Shown here one piece after another: positions 134 to 15,721 of a stretch of DNA of 25,169 nt. Within the stretch, counting starts at the first letter, position 1. The number at the start of each line of letters is the position of its first letter. The notes under the pieces are model-generated. The model searched no databases, was not told where the DNA came from, and saw nothing but the letters and a program-made list of their open reading frames with translations. The position numbers and the translations under genes were made by a program. Source of the stretch: a virus; IMG/VR virus record IMGVR_UViG_3300023176_000042, positions 1 through 25,169 of that record. One strand, 5' to 3'.

Positions 134-327
134 TGGACGCATTAAAACTTGCAGAATTTCTGCTTAAGGACATTCGTGACCGCCGTGAGAATTATAAAGA
201 GCGGTTGGCGGATGGTGGCTTTGACTCTATGGAGCAAGCCAAACTCATCGTAGGTCAGATACGCGGCCTGAACTACTGTGAGGATTTGATTAGGTCCGCG
301 ATGAAGGGTATCGAACTCGATGACTAA
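133..327 (+). CDS. Small hypothetical phage protein (64 aa)
   Basis: This short charged protein is predicted to be mostly helical and starts at an ATG overlapping the upstream TAA (TAATG). It has many Lys/Arg/Glu/Asp, a central RDRRENYKERL segment and an acidic C-terminal end (IELDD). There is no signal peptide or membrane segment. It lies between a holin-like gene and the co-chaperonin gene and overlaps the latter by 8 bases, so it belongs to the same late transcript. I do not recognise a function. A helical small protein at this site could be a minor head or assembly factor, but nothing in the sequence proves that. Confidence 0.75.
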   Translation: MDALKLAEFLLKDIRDRRENYKERLADGGFDSMEQAKLIVGQIRGLNYCEDLIRSAMKGIELDD

Positions 328-805
328 AAAACTTTTCGTCCCCGAAAGGGTGGCGGCCACGGCGAAATCTGCGCCGATTTCTGAAGTGCCTGAAAACATC
401 TCTAAGGCATACGACAATCAGCAAGAGATGACAAAAAACAATGAAGACCCATCAAAGATGGAGGCTTCTGCGCTAGAGCGGCTCCCACAACCAGTAGGAT
501 ACCGCCTCCTTGTCATTCCCTACTACATGCCACAAAAGACAAAAAGCGGCATCTACATTCCAGATGCAACTCGTGATCGTGAGAGTTTTGCAACTGTTGC
601 TGCTTATGTTGTTAAGGCTGGTCCTGACGCTTACAAAGACTCAGATAAGTTCCCTTCTGGCCCTTGGTGTAAGGAAGGATCATGGGTACTTATGGGACGT
701 TATGCTGGAAACAGGTTCAAAGTGGACGGTCTTGAGGTAAGACTGATAAATGATGACAATATTATTGCCACCATCCTTGACCCTTCCGACATTTCGTATG
801 TATAA
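320..805 (+). CDS. groES: GroES-like co-chaperonin (phage Cpn10)
   Basis: The protein has 161 residues. Residues 1-52 are a polar, probably disordered extension. Residues 54-155 follow the Cpn10 pattern: PVGYRLLVIPYYMP matches the first core strand (RPLHDRVIVKR in E. coli GroES). KTKSGIYIPDATRDRES (73-89) matches the GroEL-binding mobile loop, with IYI in the place of the IVL/III tripeptide. VAAYVVKAGPDAY matches the GEVLAVGxG strand, and KEGSWVLMGRYAGNRFKVDGLEV with NIIATI matches the last strands. GroES caps the GroEL folding chamber; phage versions such as T4 gp31 replace host GroES to fold the capsid protein. The position right before scaffold and capsid genes supports that role. An AAGGG sits 11 bases before the ATG, and the start overlaps the upstream stop. 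Family assignment is strong; a capsid client is inferred. Confidence 0.85.
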   Translation: MTKKLFVPERVAATAKSAPISEVPENISKAYDNQQEMTKNNEDPSKMEASALERLPQPVGYRLLVIPYYMPQKTKSGIYIPDATRDRESFATVAAYVVKAGPDAYKDSDKFPSGPWCKEGSWVLMGRYAGNRFKVDGLEVRLINDDNIIATILDPSDISYV

Positions 806-823
806 TTCTGGCTGGAGATAAAA

Positions 824-1735
824 ATGGAAATGAACACTCAAACTGCTGAAGCGCAAGAATCAATCTCATACGAGATTGATGATGACAACGAACAGGCGGG
901 TACCGAAATTGAACAGGAGGCTGCTTCTTCTGAAGAAGAAAACAGTACAATTGTTCGTGATCAACAAGAGAACGAACTTGAGAACTACAGCGAAAATGTT
1001 CAAAAGCGAATTAATCAATTAACTGCAAAACGCAAGCAGGCCATGGAAGAGGCTGAGGCTGCGTTGGCTTATGCTAAGTCAATTCAAGAGCAGAATGAGA
1101 ACATGAAGAAGCGTCTCGCTGAACTTGATCAGGGCTATATGACTGAGTATGGAAGCCGAGTAGAAACACAAGCCGCAGAAGCCAAGCGTATGCTCAAAGA
1201 GGCGTATGACAATGGCGATGTGGAAAAAATGGCAGAGGCTCAGGATATGATGGCTCGTTTGGCCATTGAGAAGGAGCGTCTTCGCGTTCAGAAACTTCGT
1301 GCAGAAAAAGAAGTTCAAGAACCAAAGCAGGAAGTTCCAACCCAAGCCAAAGCGCCTCAAAAGCAGGATTTAGACCCCAAACTACAAACGTGGATGGGTA
1401 AAAATTCTTGGTTCGGCACTGATATGGTGATGACGCGAGGCGCTCAGGCCATTCACGAGCAACTTGTTTCTGCTGAGGACTTTGATCCCAGCAGCGATGA
1501 ATACTATGCGGAAATTGACAAGCGTATGCGCGTTGAGTTCCCTCACAAATTTCAGGAGAAGCGGGCAAACGCCCAGTCCGTAACTCCTGCGTCTAATGGA
1601 CGGTCAGCTACCAAAAATGGGCGGAAAAAAACAGTAGAACTTACTGCTGGTCAGGTCAATATGGCCAAAAAACTAGGCATTAGCCTTGAACAAATGGCGA
1701 AAGAAGTAGCCAAGATCGAACAGAGGAGATCATAA
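824..1735 (+). CDS. Capsid scaffolding/assembly protein
   Basis: The 303-residue protein has the layout of a phage scaffold. An acidic, disordered N-terminus (1-52, rich in Glu/Gln/Ser) precedes a long Ala/Glu/Lys/Arg-rich coiled coil (about 53-165, including QKRINQLTAKRKQAMEEAE). A Pro/Gln/Lys linker (165-185) follows, then a conserved block around 187-243 (WMGKNSWFGTD, MTRGAQAIHEQLV, SSDEYYAEIDKRMR, EFPHKF) and a basic C-terminal helix with LTAGQVNMAKKLGIS. Scaffolds direct procapsid assembly and bind the capsid protein through a basic C-terminal helix. It is encoded two genes upstream of the probable decoration protein and three before the major capsid protein. GGAG lies 6 bases before the ATG, so I keep this start although a second ATG follows two codons later. 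No internal protease motif is seen. Confidence 0.8.
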   Translation: MEMNTQTAEAQESISYEIDDDNEQAGTEIEQEAASSEEENSTIVRDQQENELENYSENVQKRINQLTAKRKQAMEEAEAALAYAKSIQEQNENMKKRLAELDQGYMTEYGSRVETQAAEAKRMLKEAYDNGDVEKMAEAQDMMARLAIEKERLRVQKLRAEKEVQEPKQEVPTQAKAPQKQDLDPKLQTWMGKNSWFGTDMVMTRGAQAIHEQLVSAEDFDPSSDEYYAEIDKRMRVEFPHKFQEKRANAQSVTPASNGRSATKNGRKKTVELTAGQVNMAKKLGISLEQMAKEVAKIEQRRS

Positions 1736-2196
1736 TGACAGATCGTTCAAGCCGTGACTCGCAAACTCGTGAGAGCAAAGCCCGCGTAAAAGCTTGGCAA
1801 CCCGCAAGCGCTCTTGAGGCGCCTGAGGCTCCTGTCGGTTTTAAGCATCGTTGGATTCGTGAATCCGTGATGGAATACGATGATCGTAACAATGTTCACA
1901 AGCGCCGCCGTGAAGGTTGGGAACTTGTCAGAGCAGAGGAATACCCTGACTTTGATGCTCCTGTCCTTGATGAAGGCAAAAACGCAGGCGTAATTGGCGT
2001 AGGTGGTCTGGTTCTTGCCAGAATCCCTGAAGAAATTGCGGACCAGCGTAACTCGCATTACCAGCAAGTTACACAACAACAAATGGAAGCTGTGGATCGT
2101 GATTGGATGCGTGAAAGCAATCCGAACATGCCAAAGCTAAAACCCCAACGTTCTACCTCTGTGTCCTTTGGTGGCCCGAAGGTAGCTGATAACTAG
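1735..2196 (+). CDS. Conserved head-region protein of unknown function
   Basis: This 153-residue protein starts at an ATG inside the scaffold stop codon (TAATG). It has a basic N-terminus, then a conserved-looking core: FKHRWIRESVMEYDDRNNV followed by KRRREGWELVRAEEYPDF. A Gly-rich stretch (GVIGVGGLVLARIP) and a helical C-terminal half (EIADQRNSHYQQVTQQQMEAVD) come next, ending in SFGG near the terminus. I recall similar proteins beside capsid genes in many marine phages, always unnamed. Its place between scaffold and decoration/capsid genes implies a virion or head-assembly role, for example a minor capsid or head-completion factor. That role is inferred from context only. Confidence 0.8.
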   Translation: MTDRSSRDSQTRESKARVKAWQPASALEAPEAPVGFKHRWIRESVMEYDDRNNVHKRRREGWELVRAEEYPDFDAPVLDEGKNAGVIGVGGLVLARIPEEIADQRNSHYQQVTQQQMEAVDRDWMRESNPNMPKLKPQRSTSVSFGGPKVADN

Positions 2197-2207
2197 GAGA
2201 AAATAAG

Positions 2208-2795
2208 ATGGCTAATCAAGACGCCTCTTTCGGCCTGCGCCTTTCGCGCTCAGGTAACGGCTCCGACCTGACAAACATGCAGAACAAGTACCGCATTGCT
2301 TCTGGCTACGCTACTGCAATTTACCAAGGTGACCTCGTTGCAGTCGTTACCGCTGGTACAATTGAGCGCGTTGCCGCTGGCGGCTCTGGCTTGATTCTGG
2401 GTGTATTCAACGGTTGTGAGTACACTGACCCAACCACTGGTAAACCAACTTGGTCTAACCACTACCCTGGGTCAATCGCTGCTTCTGACATTGTAGCGTC
2501 AGTAATTGATGCACCTTACGCAGTGTACGAAATTCAAGCAGACGACACCTTCCCTGTTGCTGATCTGTTCGGCAACTTTGACATCGTTGACCAGTCCCCT
2601 GTTGGCGATACCAATTCTGGTATTTCCCGCATGGAACTTGATGTCACCACTGGCGCAACAACCGCGACTTTGCCTTTGAAAGCAATCGACATTTCTCAGG
2701 ATCCTGAGAATAGCGATGTTTCATCTGCAAACACCAACGTTGTTGTAATGATCAACAACCACCTGTTTAGTGCTGGCACTACAGGCTTGGCGTAA
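2208..2795 (+). CDS. Probable capsid decoration/head stabilisation protein
   Basis: The 195-residue protein opens with MANQDASFGLRLSRSGNGSD and is predicted to be almost entirely beta. A small barrel-like section (YATAIYQGDLVAVVTAGTIERV, then GLILGVFNGCEYTDPTTGKP) is followed by another beta section ending in NNHLF. The opening with IASGYATAIYQGD and GVFNGCEY is one I associate with small structural proteins encoded immediately upstream of HK97-fold capsid genes in marine phages. It has no membrane segment or signal peptide. A clear AGGAG site precedes the ATG. It is encoded 12 bases before the capsid gene, consistent with production at similar levels. A decoration role is inferred from size, beta content and position. 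Confidence 0.65.
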   Translation: MANQDASFGLRLSRSGNGSDLTNMQNKYRIASGYATAIYQGDLVAVVTAGTIERVAAGGSGLILGVFNGCEYTDPTTGKPTWSNHYPGSIAASDIVASVIDAPYAVYEIQADDTFPVADLFGNFDIVDQSPVGDTNSGISRMELDVTTGATTATLPLKAIDISQDPENSDVSSANTNVVVMINNHLFSAGTTGLA

Positions 2796-2807: not shown

Positions 2808-3716
2808 ATGGCTATTTCTCGCGCTCAATTGGCGAAAGAACTGGAACCCGGTCTTAACGCCCTCTTTGGCATGGAATACAACCGCTACGATGCGGAACAT
2901 GCTGAAATCTACGACACTGAATCTTCAGATCGAGCATTTGAAGAAGAAGTAATGCTGGTCGGTTTTGGCAACGCCCAAACCAAAGCAGAAGGTGCTGGCG
3001 TTTCATTCGACAGCGCTTCCGAAGCTTACACGGCACGCTATACGCATGAGACAGTTTCTCTTGCGTTTGCTTTGACCGAAGAAGCAATGGAAGATAACCT
3101 GTATGATCGTCTTGGCGCACGGTACACCCGCGCACTTGCACGTTCAATGGCTCACACCAAGCAGGTTAAAGCCGCTGCTACGTTGAACAATGCGTTCGAC
3201 AGCTCTTACACTGGCGGTGATGGTAAGGAGCTTTGCGCTACTGACCACCCACTTGCTGGCGGCGGTACTTTCCGCAACGAGCCAAGCACTGCTGCTGACC
3301 TCAACGAAACTTCATTGGAAAATGCTCTGATCGACATTTCCACTTTCGTTGATGAGCGGAACATGATCATCGCCCTTCGTGGTACCAAGTTGATCATTCC
3401 ACCTCAGCTTCAGTTCGTAGCAGATCGCCTGCTGGAATCAACGCTCCGCGTTGGCACTGCTGACAACGATGTAAACGCAATCCGTAACATGGGCATGTTG
3501 CCTGAAGGTTACACTGTCAACCACTTCTTGACAGACCCAGATGCGTTCTTCATCAAGACTGACGCTCCGAATGGCTTCAAGCACTTCGAGCGTGCGCCTT
3601 TGGCAACCAACATGGAAGCTGACTTCGACTCAGGTAACATGCGCTTTAAGGCTCGTGAGCGTTACAGCTTCGGCTACAGCGATCCTCGTGCAGTCTTCGG
3701 CTCACCTGGCGCCTAA
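2808..3716 (+). CDS. Major capsid protein (HK97-fold type)
   Basis: The 302-residue protein has the size and texture of a phage major head subunit. A helical N-terminus (ISRAQLAKELEPGLNALFG) leads into an E-loop-like region (YTARYTHETVSLAFALTEEAMEDN). A helix rich in Ala follows (ARYTRALARSMAHTKQVKAA), then the CATDHPLAGGGTFRN segment, the A-domain region LIIPPQLQFVADRLLES, and a final beta block ending RYSFGYSDPRAVFGSPGA. The sections with TKLIIPP, DPDAFFIKTDAPNGFKHFER and the closing YSFGYSDPR are typical of capsid proteins related to Mu gpT/HK97-fold subunits in marine phages. AAGGAG precedes the ATG. The gene follows scaffold and decoration genes and is followed by a terminator, as expected for the most abundant virion protein. 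No N-terminal delta domain or maturation protease is evident here. Confidence 0.85.
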   Translation: MAISRAQLAKELEPGLNALFGMEYNRYDAEHAEIYDTESSDRAFEEEVMLVGFGNAQTKAEGAGVSFDSASEAYTARYTHETVSLAFALTEEAMEDNLYDRLGARYTRALARSMAHTKQVKAAATLNNAFDSSYTGGDGKELCATDHPLAGGGTFRNEPSTAADLNETSLENALIDISTFVDERNMIIALRGTKLIIPPQLQFVADRLLESTLRVGTADNDVNAIRNMGMLPEGYTVNHFLTDPDAFFIKTDAPNGFKHFERAPLATNMEADFDSGNMRFKARERYSFGYSDPRAVFGSPGA

Positions 3717-5994: not shown

Positions 5995-6275
5995 TGGCAG
6001 TTCGTAAAACGAAAAAGGGCGCCGCCCTTAAAAGATGGTTCAAAGAGGAGTGGAAAGATGTTCGCACAGGCAAAGCGTGTGGTCGTAAGGCGGGTGAGAA
6101 GCGTGGGACGCCATATTGCCGCCCAACTAAGCGAGTTAGTTCAAAGACTCCAAAAACTGCTTCAGAGATGACAAAATCTGAGAAGCGTAGTAGAATATCA
6201 CAGAAAAAACGTTTAGGGCAACCAGCAGGAAAGCCTAAACGTGTATCGCCCTTGCGGAGAAAGCGTAAGTCATGA
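5994..6275 (+). CDS. Very basic small protein with LKRWFKEEWKDVRTGKxCGR motif
   Basis: The 93-residue protein starts inside the stop of the preceding mini-gene. Residues 9-46 carry the core GAALKRWFKEEWKDVRTGKA then CGRKAGEKRGTPYCRPTKRV, with Cys29 and Cys42, followed by a Lys/Ser/Thr-rich tail containing EMTKSEKRSR and ending RKRKS. This 'LKRWFKExW...CGR...C.P..R' domain is common in small viral proteins across phages and large DNA viruses, without known function. It is the fourth basic mini-protein in the cluster. It overlaps the connector gene by ATGA, so expression is probably coupled to connector production. Confidence 0.8.
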   Translation: MAVRKTKKGAALKRWFKEEWKDVRTGKACGRKAGEKRGTPYCRPTKRVSSKTPKTASEMTKSEKRSRISQKKRLGQPAGKPKRVSPLRRKRKS

Positions 6276-6940
6276 CCACCTCAGGTTCAACAGATTTTGA
6301 ATTGGATGTAGCAGATTACATTGAAGAGGCTTTTGAGCGTTGTGGCTTGGAAGTGCGAACTGGCTATGATCTGAAAACGGCAAAGAGATCGTTGAACCTT
6401 TTATTTGCTGACTGGGCTAATCGTGGCTTAAATCAATGGACCATTGCACAACGGCAACAAGTTGTTACTGCAAGTGATGGTGAGTACGATCTTGGATCCG
6501 ATGTTATTGATGTTTTGTCTATGGTGATACGCAGAAGCGGTACCGATTACACTATGGATCGGATTAGCCGCGATACATATATCAGCATTCCAACAAAAAC
6601 CACCACTGGACGCCCAACACAATTCTTTATTGATCGTCAGGTCACGCCGCAGATTAAAGTGTGGCCATTGCCTGAAAATAGCACAGATACATTAATTTTT
6701 GACTGTTTAACTAGAATTGAAGACGCGGATACCATGACTAATACTTTGGACGTTCCGTTTCGGTTTTATCCGTGTTTGGCGGCTGGCCTTGCATATTATA
6801 TCGCCATTAAAAAAGCGCCAGATCGCATTCAAATGCTAAAGGCAATTTACGATGAAGAGTTTGATCGCGCACAAGCGGAGGATAGAGACAGGGCATCATT
6901 TAATGTAGCGCCTAATCTTCGTTATTATAGGGTATCGTAA
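6272..6940 (+). CDS. Head-to-tail connector/adaptor protein (T7 gp11 / P22 gp4-like)
   Basis: The 222-residue protein opens with a helical bundle. Residues 9-56 include ELDVADYIEEAFERCG, then TAKRSLNLLFADWANRGLNQWT, the pattern of connector proteins that bind below the portal: paired helices with 'LN.LL.EWANRG.N.W'. A beta section follows (QQVVTASDGEYDLGSDVIDVL, DYTMDRISRDTYISIP, GRPTQFFIDRQVTPQIKVWP), then a helical end (IKKAPDRIQMLKAIYDEEFDRA). In T7 and P22 such proteins form the dodecameric ring between portal and tail nozzle. Two further connector-type proteins follow immediately. The start overlaps the previous gene (ATGA), and the stop overlaps the next start (TAATG). Which of the T7/P22 families it belongs to cannot be settled by eye. 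Confidence 0.75.
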   Translation: MTTSGSTDFELDVADYIEEAFERCGLEVRTGYDLKTAKRSLNLLFADWANRGLNQWTIAQRQQVVTASDGEYDLGSDVIDVLSMVIRRSGTDYTMDRISRDTYISIPTKTTTGRPTQFFIDRQVTPQIKVWPLPENSTDTLIFDCLTRIEDADTMTNTLDVPFRFYPCLAAGLAYYIAIKKAPDRIQMLKAIYDEEFDRAQAEDRDRASFNVAPNLRYYRVS

Positions 6941-7446: not shown

Positions 7447-8094
7447 ATGAGTTTTACATATAGCCAATTAAAAACAGCAATTCAGGACTACACAGAGAAC
7501 ACGGAAACGTCTTTTGTGACAAATCTTCCTGTGTTTATTAGGGCTTCAGAAGAGCGCATTTTCAAACTTGTTGATCTTGAATTATTTCGCAAGAACGCAA
7601 CGTCTGCGCTAACAACATCTGATCCTTATTTGTCCGTTCCATCTGACTATTTGTCTTCTTTTTCGCTTTCAATTACTAATGGCAGTTCAAAAGAATTCTT
7701 ATTACAGAAAGATGTGAATTTTTTGCAGGAGCATAGCCCCAATTCTTCATCTACTGGAACCCCTAAATATTACGCTTTTTTTGACATCGACAACTTTATT
7801 GTAGCCCCTACACCTGATAGCAATTACGCAGTTGAACTGCATTATTACTATCGCCCCGCATCATTAACGGCTGGGTCTGATAGCGGCACAACATGGTTGA
7901 GCGAGAATGCTCCAAATGCGCTTCTTTACGGATCGCTCGTAGAAGCGTATATTTACATGAAAGGTGAAGCTGACGTTCTTGCTATGTATGAAAAGCAATT
8001 TAGTGAGGCTTTATCGCGCATCAAGGATCTGGCCGAGGCCAGGGAAAACAATGACGCATATCGGCGGGGACTTCCCGACAGGCCACGGACATAG
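7447..8094 (+). CDS. Tail adaptor protein (SU10 adaptor-like)
   Basis: The 215-residue protein begins MSFTYSQLKTAIQDYTENTE, then FIRASEERIFKLVDLELFRKN, the start typical of adaptor proteins related to the phage SU10 adaptor: a short helix, 'F...LP.FI..AE.RI.R...L..FR'. The middle is beta (YLSVPSDYLSSFSLSI, KYYAFFDIDNFIVAPTPDS, VELHYYYRPASLT). The end is helical (WLSENAPNALLYGSLVEAYI, then MYEKQFSEALSRIKDLAEAR), matching the family's 'WL..N.P..LLYG.L.EAY.Y'. Adaptors of this kind sit under the portal and receive the tail fibres. It begins one base after the previous stop; the next ribosome site overlaps its own stop. Confidence 0.8.
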   Translation: MSFTYSQLKTAIQDYTENTETSFVTNLPVFIRASEERIFKLVDLELFRKNATSALTTSDPYLSVPSDYLSSFSLSITNGSSKEFLLQKDVNFLQEHSPNSSSTGTPKYYAFFDIDNFIVAPTPDSNYAVELHYYYRPASLTAGSDSGTTWLSENAPNALLYGSLVEAYIYMKGEADVLAMYEKQFSEALSRIKDLAEARENNDAYRRGLPDRPRT

Positions 8095-9292: not shown

Positions 9293-11452
9293 ATGGGATA
9301 CATAGGTGCAGGACCAACACGCTTCAACACTGCTGATAGCCTAAACATCAATGGCGATGGCGCAACTGTCACTGGGATCAAAGACGAAGACAACATGGCA
9401 TCTGACAGTGCCGTCAAACTCGCCACTCAGCAATCCATCAAAGCATATGTAGACAGCCAGATTGGTGCCAACAATGAACTGTCAGAGGTTCTTGCTAACG
9501 GCAACACCACTGGCGGTAATAACATTGCATTTGCTGACAACGACAAGGCCATCTTTGGTGCTGGCAGTGACCTTCAGATTTATCACAATGGCAATGACAG
9601 CGTTGTGCGTGATGCTGGGACTGGCGACTTGCTTCTTGCAGGTTCAACTAATGTTAAAATAACAACAAGTGGCTTTGGTGAAACTATGGCAGAGTTTGCC
9701 ACCAACGGTGCGGCAACTCTTTACTACGACAACGCCGCCAAACTCGCCACCACATCATCTGGCATTGACGTAACTGGCACGGTGACGGCTGATGGGCTGA
9801 CGGTTGATAGTTCAACAGGCATCACAGTTAATGGCCCGTCAAGCAGTGATGGTAAGTTAAACCTTGTTGCGTATGCTGGAACACAAAACGCAGAAGCCAG
9901 AATACTTGCGGCTAGAGGCGCAACAAGCGGCACAGATAGCCGCCTAAAGTTTTACACAAACAACGGCACGTCATTAGTTGAACGTATTGATATTAACGAC
10001 AACGGCGATATTGCATTTATGTCCGATAACGGCACAACGCAAGGTCTGTATTGGGACGCCTCCGCACAGGCATTAGGGCTGGGGACTACATCGCCTAGCA
10101 ATGCTTTAACAATAGAATCCTCTGGCAGTAATTTTGCAACAATGCGTTTGGAAGCGCCTAGCAACACAACCCCTGCGGCCTTTCAAATTCGTGCGCACGA
10201 TGGCCTTTTTGACATACGAGACGCTAACAACAGCGCAATCCGAATGACCATTGACAGTAGCGGCAACGTGGGCATCGGAACTGCATCTCCGACTGCTGAC
10301 TTGCATATCTCATACGGCTCTGGCTCTGGCTTGCTTGTTGAAGACACAACAAACAGCCCATCAGTAAAGTCTGTAGTTACATCAGGCAATACAGAAAGTT
10401 ACTTTGGCGCAACATCAAATCACCCCCTTGTCTTCCTTCAAAATAATACAGAACGGATGCGGATTGATTCGTCAGGCAATGTTGCAATTGGCGACAGTGT
10501 TGCAGAAGCAAAACTTCACGTTAAATCCTCTGGCACTGCTGGCTTAAATATCTCACAGGGTGTAAAGATTGAAGGGCTAGGTGTAGGCGCAAATGGCGAT
10601 GCCGCTTGTCTTTCTTTTGCGGCAGGGGACGCTCAAGTAAAAGGAGCAGTAACTTTTACAAGAAATAGTTCATATGGGCGTGGCTATATGAGTTTCTTAG
10701 TAAATGGAGATGCAAGTTACACCAACCCATCTACTAGCGATGAACGGATGCGCATCACATCAGGCGGTAACGTGGGCATCGGGACATCACCTCTAGCCAA
10801 ATTTCACGTTGATAACACAAACTCTGCTTTTTATATGGGCTATGGTGGCAACGAAGATATTTACCTTCAGACCACAAACGGCAATGTGTTGTTCACAGAC
10901 AAGGGTGCAACAACGGAACGGATGCGGGTAGATTCGTCAGGCAATCTGCTGGTGGGTAAGACATCAGACACCTATAATACTGCTGGCTCTGTAATCAGGG
11001 CTAGTGGCATGATTAGGGCGACTGTATCAGGCGATGCGGCGGCACAATTTAACAGGCTGACCAGTGATGGCACTTTACTTAACTTTTCTCGTTCTGGAAG
11101 CACCGTAGGCTCTGTTTCTGTCACTACCACAGGCACAACCTACAACACCACATCAGACATACGCCTAAAGACCGACATCGCACCAATCGCAGATGCCACA
11201 GACAAACTGATGTCGATGAACGCAGTATCGCACAAGTGGAAGGCAGAGCCTGACGCTGATGCGGTGGTTGGCTTTATCGCTCAAGAGATGGCAGAGATTG
11301 TGCCAGAGGCGGTGAGCAAAGGCGAGGGCGAAGATGATATGTGGTCTATGGATTACGGTCGCATCACGCCTGTGCTTGTAGCGGCGTTGCAAGATGCACA
11401 TAAGAAGATTGAACAACTGGAACAGCGTATCGCTGAGATGGAGGCTAACTGA
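9293..11452 (+). CDS. Tail fibre with C-terminal S74 self-cleaving chaperone
   Basis: The 719-residue protein is a classic trimeric fibre. The N-terminus (GYIGAGPTRFNTADSLNI, then AVKLATQQSIKAYVDSQ) is the usual attachment region. The shaft has DLQIYHNGND and at least four spaced copies of a 'RM-RIDSSGNVGIG' motif (around DNA 10245, 10456, 10746 and 10918). Residues 621-719 form an intramolecular chaperone of the peptidase S74 type: SDIRLK with Ser621 and Lys626 at the five-residue spacing of the catalytic dyad known in endosialidase, then VGFIAQEMAEIVPEAV and a final coiled coil. Cleavage before Ser621 is predicted, after the chaperone has trimerised the fibre. The stop overlaps the next start (TGATG). 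No receptor-binding enzyme domain is visible. Confidence 0.85.
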   Translation: MGYIGAGPTRFNTADSLNINGDGATVTGIKDEDNMASDSAVKLATQQSIKAYVDSQIGANNELSEVLANGNTTGGNNIAFADNDKAIFGAGSDLQIYHNGNDSVVRDAGTGDLLLAGSTNVKITTSGFGETMAEFATNGAATLYYDNAAKLATTSSGIDVTGTVTADGLTVDSSTGITVNGPSSSDGKLNLVAYAGTQNAEARILAARGATSGTDSRLKFYTNNGTSLVERIDINDNGDIAFMSDNGTTQGLYWDASAQALGLGTTSPSNALTIESSGSNFATMRLEAPSNTTPAAFQIRAHDGLFDIRDANNSAIRMTIDSSGNVGIGTASPTADLHISYGSGSGLLVEDTTNSPSVKSVVTSGNTESYFGATSNHPLVFLQNNTERMRIDSSGNVAIGDSVAEAKLHVKSSGTAGLNISQGVKIEGLGVGANGDAACLSFAAGDAQVKGAVTFTRNSSYGRGYMSFLVNGDASYTNPSTSDERMRITSGGNVGIGTSPLAKFHVDNTNSAFYMGYGGNEDIYLQTTNGNVLFTDKGATTERMRVDSSGNLLVGKTSDTYNTAGSVIRASGMIRATVSGDAAAQFNRLTSDGTLLNFSRSGSTVGSVSVTTTGTTYNTTSDIRLKTDIAPIADATDKLMSMNAVSHKWKAEPDADAVVGFIAQEMAEIVPEAVSKGEGEDDMWSMDYGRITPVLVAALQDAHKKIEQLEQRIAEMEAN

Positions 11453-12349: not shown

Positions 12350-15300
12350 ATGTCACGAGCAAGAGATTTAGCAAACATTGCAGATGGCGACATCACTGGA
12401 TCACTGACGCTTGACGGCCTCACTGTTGCTGGCAATGTCAGCGTAGACGGCGGCACGATTAAACTGGACGGCAATTATCCGACAGGCACAGGCAACGTAG
12501 CGTTGGGTGATGGTGCGCTTGATGACGCAAGTTTATCGGGCAGTTATAATGTTGCGTTAGGTGGATCTGCGCTTACGGCTAACACTACCGCATCCAACAA
12601 TACGGCTGTTGGTTTTCAATCTCTACTCTCCAACACAACTGGCACAGGCAACACCGCCGTTGGTACTAGCGCATTGGATGCGAACACAACAGCACAATAC
12701 AATACTGGAGTTGGTCAAAATGCTTTGGGGGCAACGACTACTGGTAGCAATAACACTGCTGTCGGCCTAAACGCCGCTGACGCAAACACAACTGGCGCAA
12801 ACAATACTGCAATGGGTGTGTCTGCTCTTGGAGCAAGCACTACGGCAAACAACAATACGGCTATTGGTTATGCGTCACTTGAGGCAAACACCACAGGCTT
12901 TAGCAACGCCGCTTTAGGCGGTCGTTCACTTGATGATAATACAACTGGCTCACAGAATACGGCGTTGGGCTATCAAGCATTGTCGGCGAATACTACGGCA
13001 AACAACAATACGGCGGTTGGCTTTCAGTCTCTGTACGCAAACACCACTGGCACATCCAATGTTGCTGTAGGTAAATCAACGCTTGATGCTAATACTGACG
13101 GTAATAGAAACACAGGGTTAGGCGAGAGTGCTTTAGGTTCTAACACTTCGGGCGATAACAACACTGCTGTTGGTCAAGGGGCGTTGTTTGGAAATACTAC
13201 AGCAAATAACAATACAGCCGTAGGATATCAAACTCTTGTTTCTAACACCACAGGCACAGGCAACGTGGCAGTTGGTTCGCTATCTGCTGATGCAAATACT
13301 ACTGGGAGTTTCAACACTGGGCTTGGTTATAATGCCTTAACCGCAAACACTACTGCTGGTCACAACACAGCATTAGGTTATAACGCCCTTTCTAGTTCAA
13401 ACGCCGCACAGAATACCGCCATCGGCTCTGGTGCTATGTCATCTAACACGTCAGGCGCAAGCAATGTGGCTGTAGGTTATTTGTCACTAGGCACTAATAG
13501 CACCGCAGACAACAACACCGCTGTTGGTTATTATTCGTTGAATCAAAACTCCACAGGCTTTGGCAATGTGGCTGTGGGTAAGGATGCCTTACAGTTTAAT
13601 ACGACAGGCACTCTTAATGTCGCTATTGGCGCACAGGCTCTAGAAGATAATACAACGGCAAGTAACAATGTGGGTGTTGGATATTTTGCGATAGCCAATA
13701 ATACCACTGGCGCAAACAACACAGCGTTAGGTAATCTCTCATTAGCCTCAAACACCACCGCATCAAACAATACGGCTGTAGGACATCAGTCATCTTACTC
13801 AAATACAACTGGCACTGAATTAGCATCATTTGGTAGATGGTCTATGTACTATAACACCACTGGCAGTTATAACACAGCGGTTGGTTACTCTGCTATGCAG
13901 TCTAATACCTCTGGTAGTAACAATTCGGCATTTGGCAGATATGCGCTGTTTTCAAACACCACAGGCGCAGGTAATGCGGCGTTTGGCTACCGTGCGTTAA
14001 GTTCTTATAGCGGCAATTACAACACTGCACTTGGCGCAGACGCACTTCAAAATGCGGTAACAGGTGGCGCAAGCAATGTGGCTGTTGGGTATCTTGCGGC
14101 AAACCAAACAACAACTGGCTCTGACAACACTGTTATAGGCCGTGAAGCACTTTATTCTAATACCACAGGTGCATATAATACGGCTCTTGGTGAAGACGCA
14201 CTTTTCTCAAACACTACCCAATCAAGAAACACAGCCGTTGGCTATCAGGCGATGCGTCAAAATAGCACTGGCTCTGGCACTGCTGTAGGTTTTCAGGCTC
14301 TTTATAGCCAAACTATTGGTGTTGACAATACAGGCGTTGGTAAAGAAACACTTGGGAGCAATACTACTGGCAATAGAAACACCTCTTTAGGTTATCGTGC
14401 CTTATTTGCAAATACCACCGCATCTAACAATACGGCTTTGGGCTATCAGTCGCTATATGCAAACACTACTGGCGCAAACAACACTGCTATTGGCTATGGG
14501 TCACTTGATGCAAATACAACTGCGTCAAACAATACGTCTGTTGGGTATAATTCTTTAACAGCAAATACTACTGGCACAGAGAATGTTGCGGTGGGTCAAG
14601 GCTCACTTGAAAGCAACACTACTGGTAGTTACAACGTGGGCTTAGGCCGACAAGCATTGCTATTTAACACTAGTGGCGCAAGAAATATTGCTATTGGTAG
14701 AAATACGCTTTATTCAAACACCGTTGCAGATGATAACACTGCCGTTGGTTTCGGTGTGATGATTGCAAACACCACTGGCACACAGAACACCGCACTGGGT
14801 CAAAGCGCCCTTGATGCTAACACCACAGGCAATTACAACGTGGCTCTTGGCGCACACGCTTTGGGGCAGAATACTACGGCGTCTGACAATACGGCTATAG
14901 GTAAGGATGCGCTTACCTCAAACACCACAGGCCAACACAATGTCGCTTTGGGAAAAGAAGCAGGTCTATCTAATGTAACTGGTTCTCATTCTACTTTTGT
15001 AGGCAAGCAATCTGGCTATTACACTACTGGTGACAGCAATACTTTCATAGGTAGAAGCGCAGGGGAAAACGTTACCACAGGCACAAAGAACACTGTCATT
15101 GGTCGCTACAACGGTAATCAAGGCGGCCTAGACATCCGCACATCCAGCAACTACATCGTGCTGTCAGATGGCGATGGTAATCCTCGCCAGATTATAGATT
15201 CGTCAGGTCAATTTAGACTTAATACAACTAGTCATCTTTGGACAAGCAATGAATTTGCATCGTTTGATTGTCCTAATGATGGCGTTACAGTTAGGTCACA

Positions 15301-15721
15301 ATATGCGACTTTACTGTTGAAGAAAACGGCATTTGCAAACTCAAATTTTGTTGTGTTTGGAGATAATTCTTCAAATGTTGTTGGGTCAATTACTTCTGGC
15401 GGCACTAGCGTTGCCTACAACACCACATCAGATTACCGCCTCAAGGAAAACATAGTTGATATGACAGGCGCAACTGAACGCCTGAAGCAACTCAATCCTG
15501 TACGCTTTAACTTTATTGCGGATGCCGACACAACTGTTGATGGCTTCCTTGCACATGAGGTTCAGGACATTGTTCCAGAGGCAATCACAGGAACAAAAGA
15601 TGAGGTTGATGATGACGGTAACGCAGTTTATCAGGGCATTGACCAATCAAAACTTGTGCCGCTTCTTGTGGCAACTATACAAGAACTTGAGGCTCGTATA
15701 GCCGCACTTGAGTCCAACTAA
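12350..15721 (+). CDS. Giant fibre: 51 tandem YadA-head-like repeats plus S74 chaperone
   Basis: The protein has 1123 residues. Residues 1-48 (RARDLANIADGDITGSLTLD) are the usual fibre attachment lead. Residues 49-913 consist of 51 consecutive units of about 17 residues, consensus N-T-A-V-G-Y-x-A-L-x-x-N-T-T-G-x-x. This is reminiscent of the beta-roll head of trimeric adhesins such as YadA, though that repeat is usually nearer 14. Residues 914-1026 are a beta neck. Residues 1027-1123 are an S74 intramolecular chaperone: SDYRLK with Ser1027 and Lys1032, then FIADADTTVDGFLAHEVQDI, then a coiled coil. Self-cleavage before Ser1027 is predicted. The likely product is a long rod-like trimer that reaches the host surface. 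AGGAG precedes the start, and the next gene follows after 16 bases. Confidence 0.85.
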   Translation: MSRARDLANIADGDITGSLTLDGLTVAGNVSVDGGTIKLDGNYPTGTGNVALGDGALDDASLSGSYNVALGGSALTANTTASNNTAVGFQSLLSNTTGTGNTAVGTSALDANTTAQYNTGVGQNALGATTTGSNNTAVGLNAADANTTGANNTAMGVSALGASTTANNNTAIGYASLEANTTGFSNAALGGRSLDDNTTGSQNTALGYQALSANTTANNNTAVGFQSLYANTTGTSNVAVGKSTLDANTDGNRNTGLGESALGSNTSGDNNTAVGQGALFGNTTANNNTAVGYQTLVSNTTGTGNVAVGSLSADANTTGSFNTGLGYNALTANTTAGHNTALGYNALSSSNAAQNTAIGSGAMSSNTSGASNVAVGYLSLGTNSTADNNTAVGYYSLNQNSTGFGNVAVGKDALQFNTTGTLNVAIGAQALEDNTTASNNVGVGYFAIANNTTGANNTALGNLSLASNTTASNNTAVGHQSSYSNTTGTELASFGRWSMYYNTTGSYNTAVGYSAMQSNTSGSNNSAFGRYALFSNTTGAGNAAFGYRALSSYSGNYNTALGADALQNAVTGGASNVAVGYLAANQTTTGSDNTVIGREALYSNTTGAYNTALGEDALFSNTTQSRNTAVGYQAMRQNSTGSGTAVGFQALYSQTIGVDNTGVGKETLGSNTTGNRNTSLGYRALFANTTASNNTALGYQSLYANTTGANNTAIGYGSLDANTTASNNTSVGYNSLTANTTGTENVAVGQGSLESNTTGSYNVGLGRQALLFNTSGARNIAIGRNTLYSNTVADDNTAVGFGVMIANTTGTQNTALGQSALDANTTGNYNVALGAHALGQNTTASDNTAIGKDALTSNTTGQHNVALGKEAGLSNVTGSHSTFVGKQSGYYTTGDSNTFIGRSAGENVTTGTKNTVIGRYNGNQGGLDIRTSSNYIVLSDGDGNPRQIIDSSGQFRLNTTSHLWTSNEFASFDCPNDGVTVRSQYATLLLKKTAFANSNFVVFGDNSSNVVGSITSGGTSVAYNTTSDYRLKENIVDMTGATERLKQLNPVRFNFIADADTTVDGFLAHEVQDIVPEAITGTKDEVDDDGNAVYQGIDQSKLVPLLVATIQELEARIAALESN
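12494..15088 (+). repeat. 51 tandem 51-base coding repeats (17-residue units)
   Basis: Aligning every NTAVG-like pentapeptide gives 51 units without a gap. Forty-five are exactly 17 residues; two have 18 and four have 16 residues. The strongest positions are N1, A/G3, G5, L/M9, N12-T13-T14 and G15. The DNA copies differ mainly at synonymous sites (NTTG is written several ways), so the array is old and held by selection on protein rather than recently amplified. The last complete unit ends at 15088 and a fifty-second, degenerate unit acts as a cap. Confidence 0.9.

Follow-up and report, generated by a model that had tools for sequence, protein, structure and literature searches.

Why do phages with a small capsid protein keep a GroES of their own? 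The answer given for T4 gp31, a bigger folding cage, does not fit the locus described here, which lies in a 25-kb virus fragment of 47% G+C (IMG/VR record IMGVR_UViG_3300023176_000042, positions 1 to 25,169), referred to below as the window. The gene at 320-805 encodes a GroES-like protein with an N-terminal extension and is followed by a block of head genes (Table 1). An earlier note on this DNA had read the product as a dedicated lid for capsid folding with host GroEL.

By sequence and by predicted structure, 320-805 is a real gene whose product belongs to the Cpn10/GroES family. The Cpn10 core recognized in the earlier note was recovered by the Pfam Cpn10 profile (PF00166) at residues 57 to 152 with a score of 40.7 bits (cutoff, 21.1; E = 2.4e-10), a full-length match covering positions 3 to 93 of the 93 in the profile, and PHROG 3188 ("co-chaperonin GroES") was also matched (E = 2.2e-13). 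Solved bacterial GroES was reached both via phmmer and via the family profile, and the Pfam Cpn10 match was present in 91 of 91 diverse members. An AlphaFold model built from 91 sequences (mean pLDDT = 71.6) gave pLDDT values of 63 to 91 for the barrel blocks and 45 to 60 for the low-confidence N-terminal third. The Cpn10 beta barrel expected of such a protein appeared in this model: its top PDB matches in Foldseek were GroES chains from GroEL-GroES complexes, the best being 8wuc (E = 1.9e-5; probability, 1.00; TM = 0.68 normalized by target), with T4 gp31 far below them (E = 0.012). The GroES-type mobile loop proposed from the motif KTKSGIYIPDA (residues 73 to 83) likewise held up, aligning without gaps to the loop of solved GroES and placing I78-Y79-I80 at the GroEL-contact tripeptide, positions 1 and 3 of which are aliphatic in nearly all family members. 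We predict that the product is very probably a functional co-chaperonin of host GroEL. Its C-terminal tail, DPSDISYV, is almost invariant among near relatives, and distant ones show DPxDI.

Table 1. Features of the co-chaperonin gene and the adjoining head-gene block (window coordinates)
Feature	Position	Strand	Details and basis
groES-like co-chaperonin gene	320..805	+	ATG start, 161 aa, start and stop included; Pfam PF00166, PHROG 3188
N-terminal tip, residues 4-12 (KLFVPERVA), mobile-loop-like peptide	329..355	+	Near-invariant among near relatives
Variable-length, low-confidence tether, residues 13-55	356..484	+	pLDDT 45-60; dN/dS ~0.09-0.13
Cpn10 beta-barrel domain, residues 56-153	485..778	+	Pfam residues 57-152; Foldseek to GroES chains
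Mobile loop, residues 73-88, KTKSGIYIPDATRDRE	536..583	+	Ungapped alignment to solved GroES loop
Roof segment (kept), residues 101-120, GPDAYKDSDKFPSGPWCKEG	620..679	+	GroES alignment; strongly conserved, family A2
C-terminal tail DPSDISYV, conserved in phage family	779..802	+	
Scaffold-like coiled-coil protein, 303 aa	824..1735	+	AlphaFold; PHROG 28737 (unknown function)
Conserved head-block gene	1735..2196	+	PHROG 36003
Conserved head-block gene, place fits decoration/head protein	2208..2795	+	PHROG 37556; synteny
Major capsid protein, 302 aa, 33.1 kDa	2808..3716	+	Phage_capsid_4 4.9e-12, Mu-like_gpT 1.8e-6 (Pfam)

The placement before scaffold and capsid genes noted earlier was borne out: downstream of groES lie a coiled-coil scaffold-like protein, two small genes, and the capsid gene. 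In its AlphaFold model (mean pLDDT = 81), the scaffold-like protein forms helices at residues 50 to 130 and 133 to 165 and a C-terminal helical hairpin. The three genes between groES and capsid were present together in 170 of 174 loci. Judged from its Pfam matches, the capsid is of the HK97/Mu-gpT-like type, and the capsid protein is 73% identical to that of DSL-LC04. On the other side of groES, a 64-aa gene (133-327) overlaps the groES start by 8 bases, which suggests translational coupling; a small gene recurs at this place in relatives.

The linkage between the co-chaperonin and the capsid was measured on loci fetched by capsid protein alone, with queries from the window and from a distant Alcaligenes phage. 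A groES gene preceded that of the capsid by about 2 kb in all 70 loci with at least 3.3 kb of upstream sequence, a set that includes near-copies and some contigs also found by groES queries and so does not represent 70 independent events. Among the deepest capsid relatives, groES lies away from the head-block place: when entire records were searched, a single Cpn10 turned up elsewhere in vir526, MW202601, and G013 (the contig of locus L298). Linkage to the capsid gene is therefore not absolute, and the idea that groES was absent from the deep capsid relatives and gained later was dropped in light of the same searches. In one distant capsid relative (L306; MW202601.1, 13699-14163), the Cpn10 gene lies near a single-stranded DNA-binding protein gene, and in a Methanomicrobiales (archaea)-assigned virus of the same capsid lineage (L305; BK063670.1, 42826-43182), groS lies beside terminase. 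Cpn60/GroEL was not encoded in any of the 20 related records searched, and the partner is thus expected to be host GroEL. The natural reading is of a lid for host GroEL that serves capsid folding, the client being suggested by the strict linkage; the capsid protein is probably the main one. With one capsid lineage so strictly paired with a Cpn10, nature also provides a set of cases in which capsid folding can be tested.

Phage co-chaperonins that act with host GroEL for the capsid protein are known from T4 (gp31) and RB49 (CocO) (PMC3012670), and the present protein, with its gene linked to that of the capsid and no phage Cpn60 in the 20 records, would fit this pattern, its need for capsid folding being putative. 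The roof loops are missing from gp31, and its mobile loop is longer than that of GroES; these special features are explained by its 56-kDa client, gp23 (PMC6318259), a size at the cage limit. In contrast, the loop of the 320-805 product has no insertion relative to solved GroES, a conserved roof segment is kept, and the 33.1-kDa capsid protein is well within an ordinary cage. Taken together, the small capsid protein, the ordinary loop length, and the retained roof imply no enlarged cage. The comparison with T4 gp31 drawn in the earlier note therefore holds only loosely, for a capsid-linked lid, given its constant place in the 70 loci and the lack of phage GroEL in the 20 records, but does not extend to an enlarged cage, and the Foldseek ranking also favors GroES over gp31.

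Neither the gene nor its place is new. Cultured phages share the order of all five genes, from groES through the coiled-coil scaffold and two further genes to the capsid; it is annotated in pelagiphages HTVC023P and HTVC027P, phage 023Pt_psg01, Roseobacter phages CRP-901/902, and DSL-LC04, as well as in Planktothrix Pag-Yong1, Caulobacter RW, Alcaligenes QDWS535, and Manatee Spring phages; GroES is moreover a core gene of HTVC023P-type phages (PMC9599517). Both are thus already known. HTVC023P gp36, HTVC027P gp55, and the CRP-901/902 GroES share with the 320-805 product the Cpn10 core and the gene order to the capsid; the HTVC023P-type and CRP-901/902 proteins carry N-terminal extensions of about 20 to 50 residues that lack an LxVP tip. 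Co-chaperonins of uncultured viruses in BFVD (A0A221S3B8 and others) have the same fold and length and are 41% identical. No near-identical DNA was found in phage records. Bacterial GroES (PF00166) has the barrel, a mobile loop equal in length, and the roof segment in common with the phage protein but not its 55-residue arm, which bears a loop-like tip, or its conserved 8-residue C-terminal tail. The element of 320-805 that appears to be new is the N-terminal extension with its tip.

The extension (about 55 residues, 1 to 55) lies outside every Cpn10 match. It had been described as polar; an extension is indeed present, but its first 12 residues form a conserved, partly hydrophobic motif. The tip motif, [KT]L[FYI][VL]P[DE][HR][VIL]A, occurs within the first dozen residues in 76 of the 91 diverse members, in which the tether between tip and barrel spans 18 to 62 residues. 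Across 54 distinct near relatives, with pooled and hence nonindependent pairs, dN/dS was approximately 0.14 for residues 1 to 11, 0.13 for residues 12 to 38, and 0.09 for residues 39 to 55, compared with 0.04 for the barrel. The extension is therefore translated and under purifying selection; with the internal Met47 also not conserved, a start-codon artifact was rejected. When mapped onto a tree of 75 representative capsid proteins, the presence or absence of the tip required 4 changes, against a mean of 24 for shuffled labels, indicating that the tip is inherited, most simply through one gain and few losses. Several lineages lack it, cultured pelagiphages among them, so the tip is dispensable for basic function.

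The tip resembles the mobile loop of its own protein. This likeness was first spotted by eye, before testing; the subsequent ranking covered all 9-residue windows in five gene families, each scored with the tip profile. The best non-self match of the tip was its own mobile loop (profile-profile score, 12.1), whereas 913 control windows reached at most 4.3 (mean, -19.9; standard deviation, 7.6). The BLOSUM mean between tips and their own loops was 16.8, compared with -9.0 for shuffled tips, and scores above 11 bits against the tip were obtained by 6 of 79 distinct mobile loops but by only 5 of 741,119 other 8-residue windows. Hydrophobic positions 1 and 3 of the tip are aliphatic throughout and the middle position varies, a tolerance pattern shared with I25-V26-L27 of GroES, in which residue 26, unlike the essential residues 25 and 27, can be dispensed with (PMC5575113); on GroEL, this tripeptide touches apical-domain helices H and I (PMC3514286). 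Tips were slightly more similar to their own loops than to those in permuted pairs (2 of 2000 permutations reached the observed value), for which shared descent suffices as a reason. The raw table (27/4/3/9) gave a strong impression that tip and loop change in concert along the tree; this idea was set aside because the independent pairs, 3 to 4 in number, are too few (sign test p of ~1). Some members (L129, L148, and L239) combine an intact tip with a changed loop.

We propose that the phage GroES-type lid would cap host GroEL and thereby promote efficient folding of proteins for capsid assembly, with the major capsid protein as the likeliest client, and that each subunit would present two GroEL-docking peptides, I78-Y79-I80-P-D in the mobile loop and L5-F6-V7-P-E on the arm. 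The arm-borne peptide would bind to the hydrophobic groove of the GroEL apical domain that also receives the mobile loop, either ahead of that loop or next to it. By raising the capture rate and avidity, this second peptide could give the phage lid a competitive advantage over host GroES and over unfolded clients of the host. As a whole, this reading of a host-GroEL lid for capsid folding with two docking peptides per subunit stands, in our judgment, an even chance of being correct. Taken by itself, the tip as a second GroEL-binding peptide is suggested by the likeness to the loop and falls slightly short of even; that a large marine phage co-chaperonin lineage carries a second, arm-borne GroEL-docking copy per subunit, giving 14 peptides per lid, is plausible but more tentative. 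One consideration argues against docking of the tip: in a full 7:7 complex, the mobile loops should fill all cis grooves. To our knowledge, no second arm-borne docking peptide has been described in cellular Cpn10 or in gp31. If the proposal is true, it would reveal a new way of taking over GroEL, by a second docking peptide on a tether, and might account for the function of a phage lid amid abundant host GroES.

Other roles for the arm were weighed against these data. The earlier note had suggested that the extension recruits the scaffold or the capsid protein; the arm would then be a client-recruiting tail whose tip binds one of these proteins and passes it on to GroEL. Recruiting peptides are typically laid out in this way, as a conserved tip at the end of a flexible tether, groES is strictly linked to the scaffold and capsid genes, and the tip (AKKLFVPERVA in relatives) loosely resembles the scaffold C terminus, AKKLGVPLEEYA. 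However, the scaffold C-terminal window scored -7.5 against the tip profile, a value on which mimicry of that terminus was discarded, and scaffold and capsid windows in general did not exceed 4.3, compared with 12.1 for the loop; the same scaffold and capsid families are also kept in phages without the tip. We regard recruitment as unlikely. It is quite unlikely, in our view, that the arm has no specific partner and instead packs on the barrel or a neighboring subunit or affects solubility or heptamer assembly, the likeness to the loop reflecting a general hydrophobic-Pro-acidic turn. Such an arm would accord with a likeness that rests on about five key positions, with the placement of the tip without confidence by AlphaFold, and with its loss from several lineages, but not with a likeness far above that of control windows or with a tip that is more constrained than the surrounding tether in both residue identity and length.

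A broader alternative concerns the gene rather than the arm: groES could be an auxiliary gene of general use, one that raises the folding capacity of the infected host during the phage cycle and has no special link to the capsid. Chaperonin genes do occur in many unrelated phages, as the BFVD matches illustrate. The identical place of groES in all testable capsid-found loci speaks against this explanation, as does its membership in the core gene set of the HTVC023P type (PMC9599517), which a sporadic auxiliary gene would lack, and we consider the explanation improbable. The two-peptide lid for host GroEL remains our preferred reading at the strength given above.

Among the metagenome-assembled genome (MAG) bins that contain related contigs are Rhodobacteraceae, Planktomarina, and Maricaulis, a hint of an alphaproteobacterial host, although binning can mislead. 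Elsewhere in the window, 9293-11452 and 12350-15721 encode large tail fibre or spike proteins, each ending in a Peptidase_S74 intramolecular chaperone domain. The SU10 adaptor family was matched separately by 6272-6940 (6.5e-13) and 7447-8094 (7.9e-28), and two adaptor-like paralogues may therefore be present.
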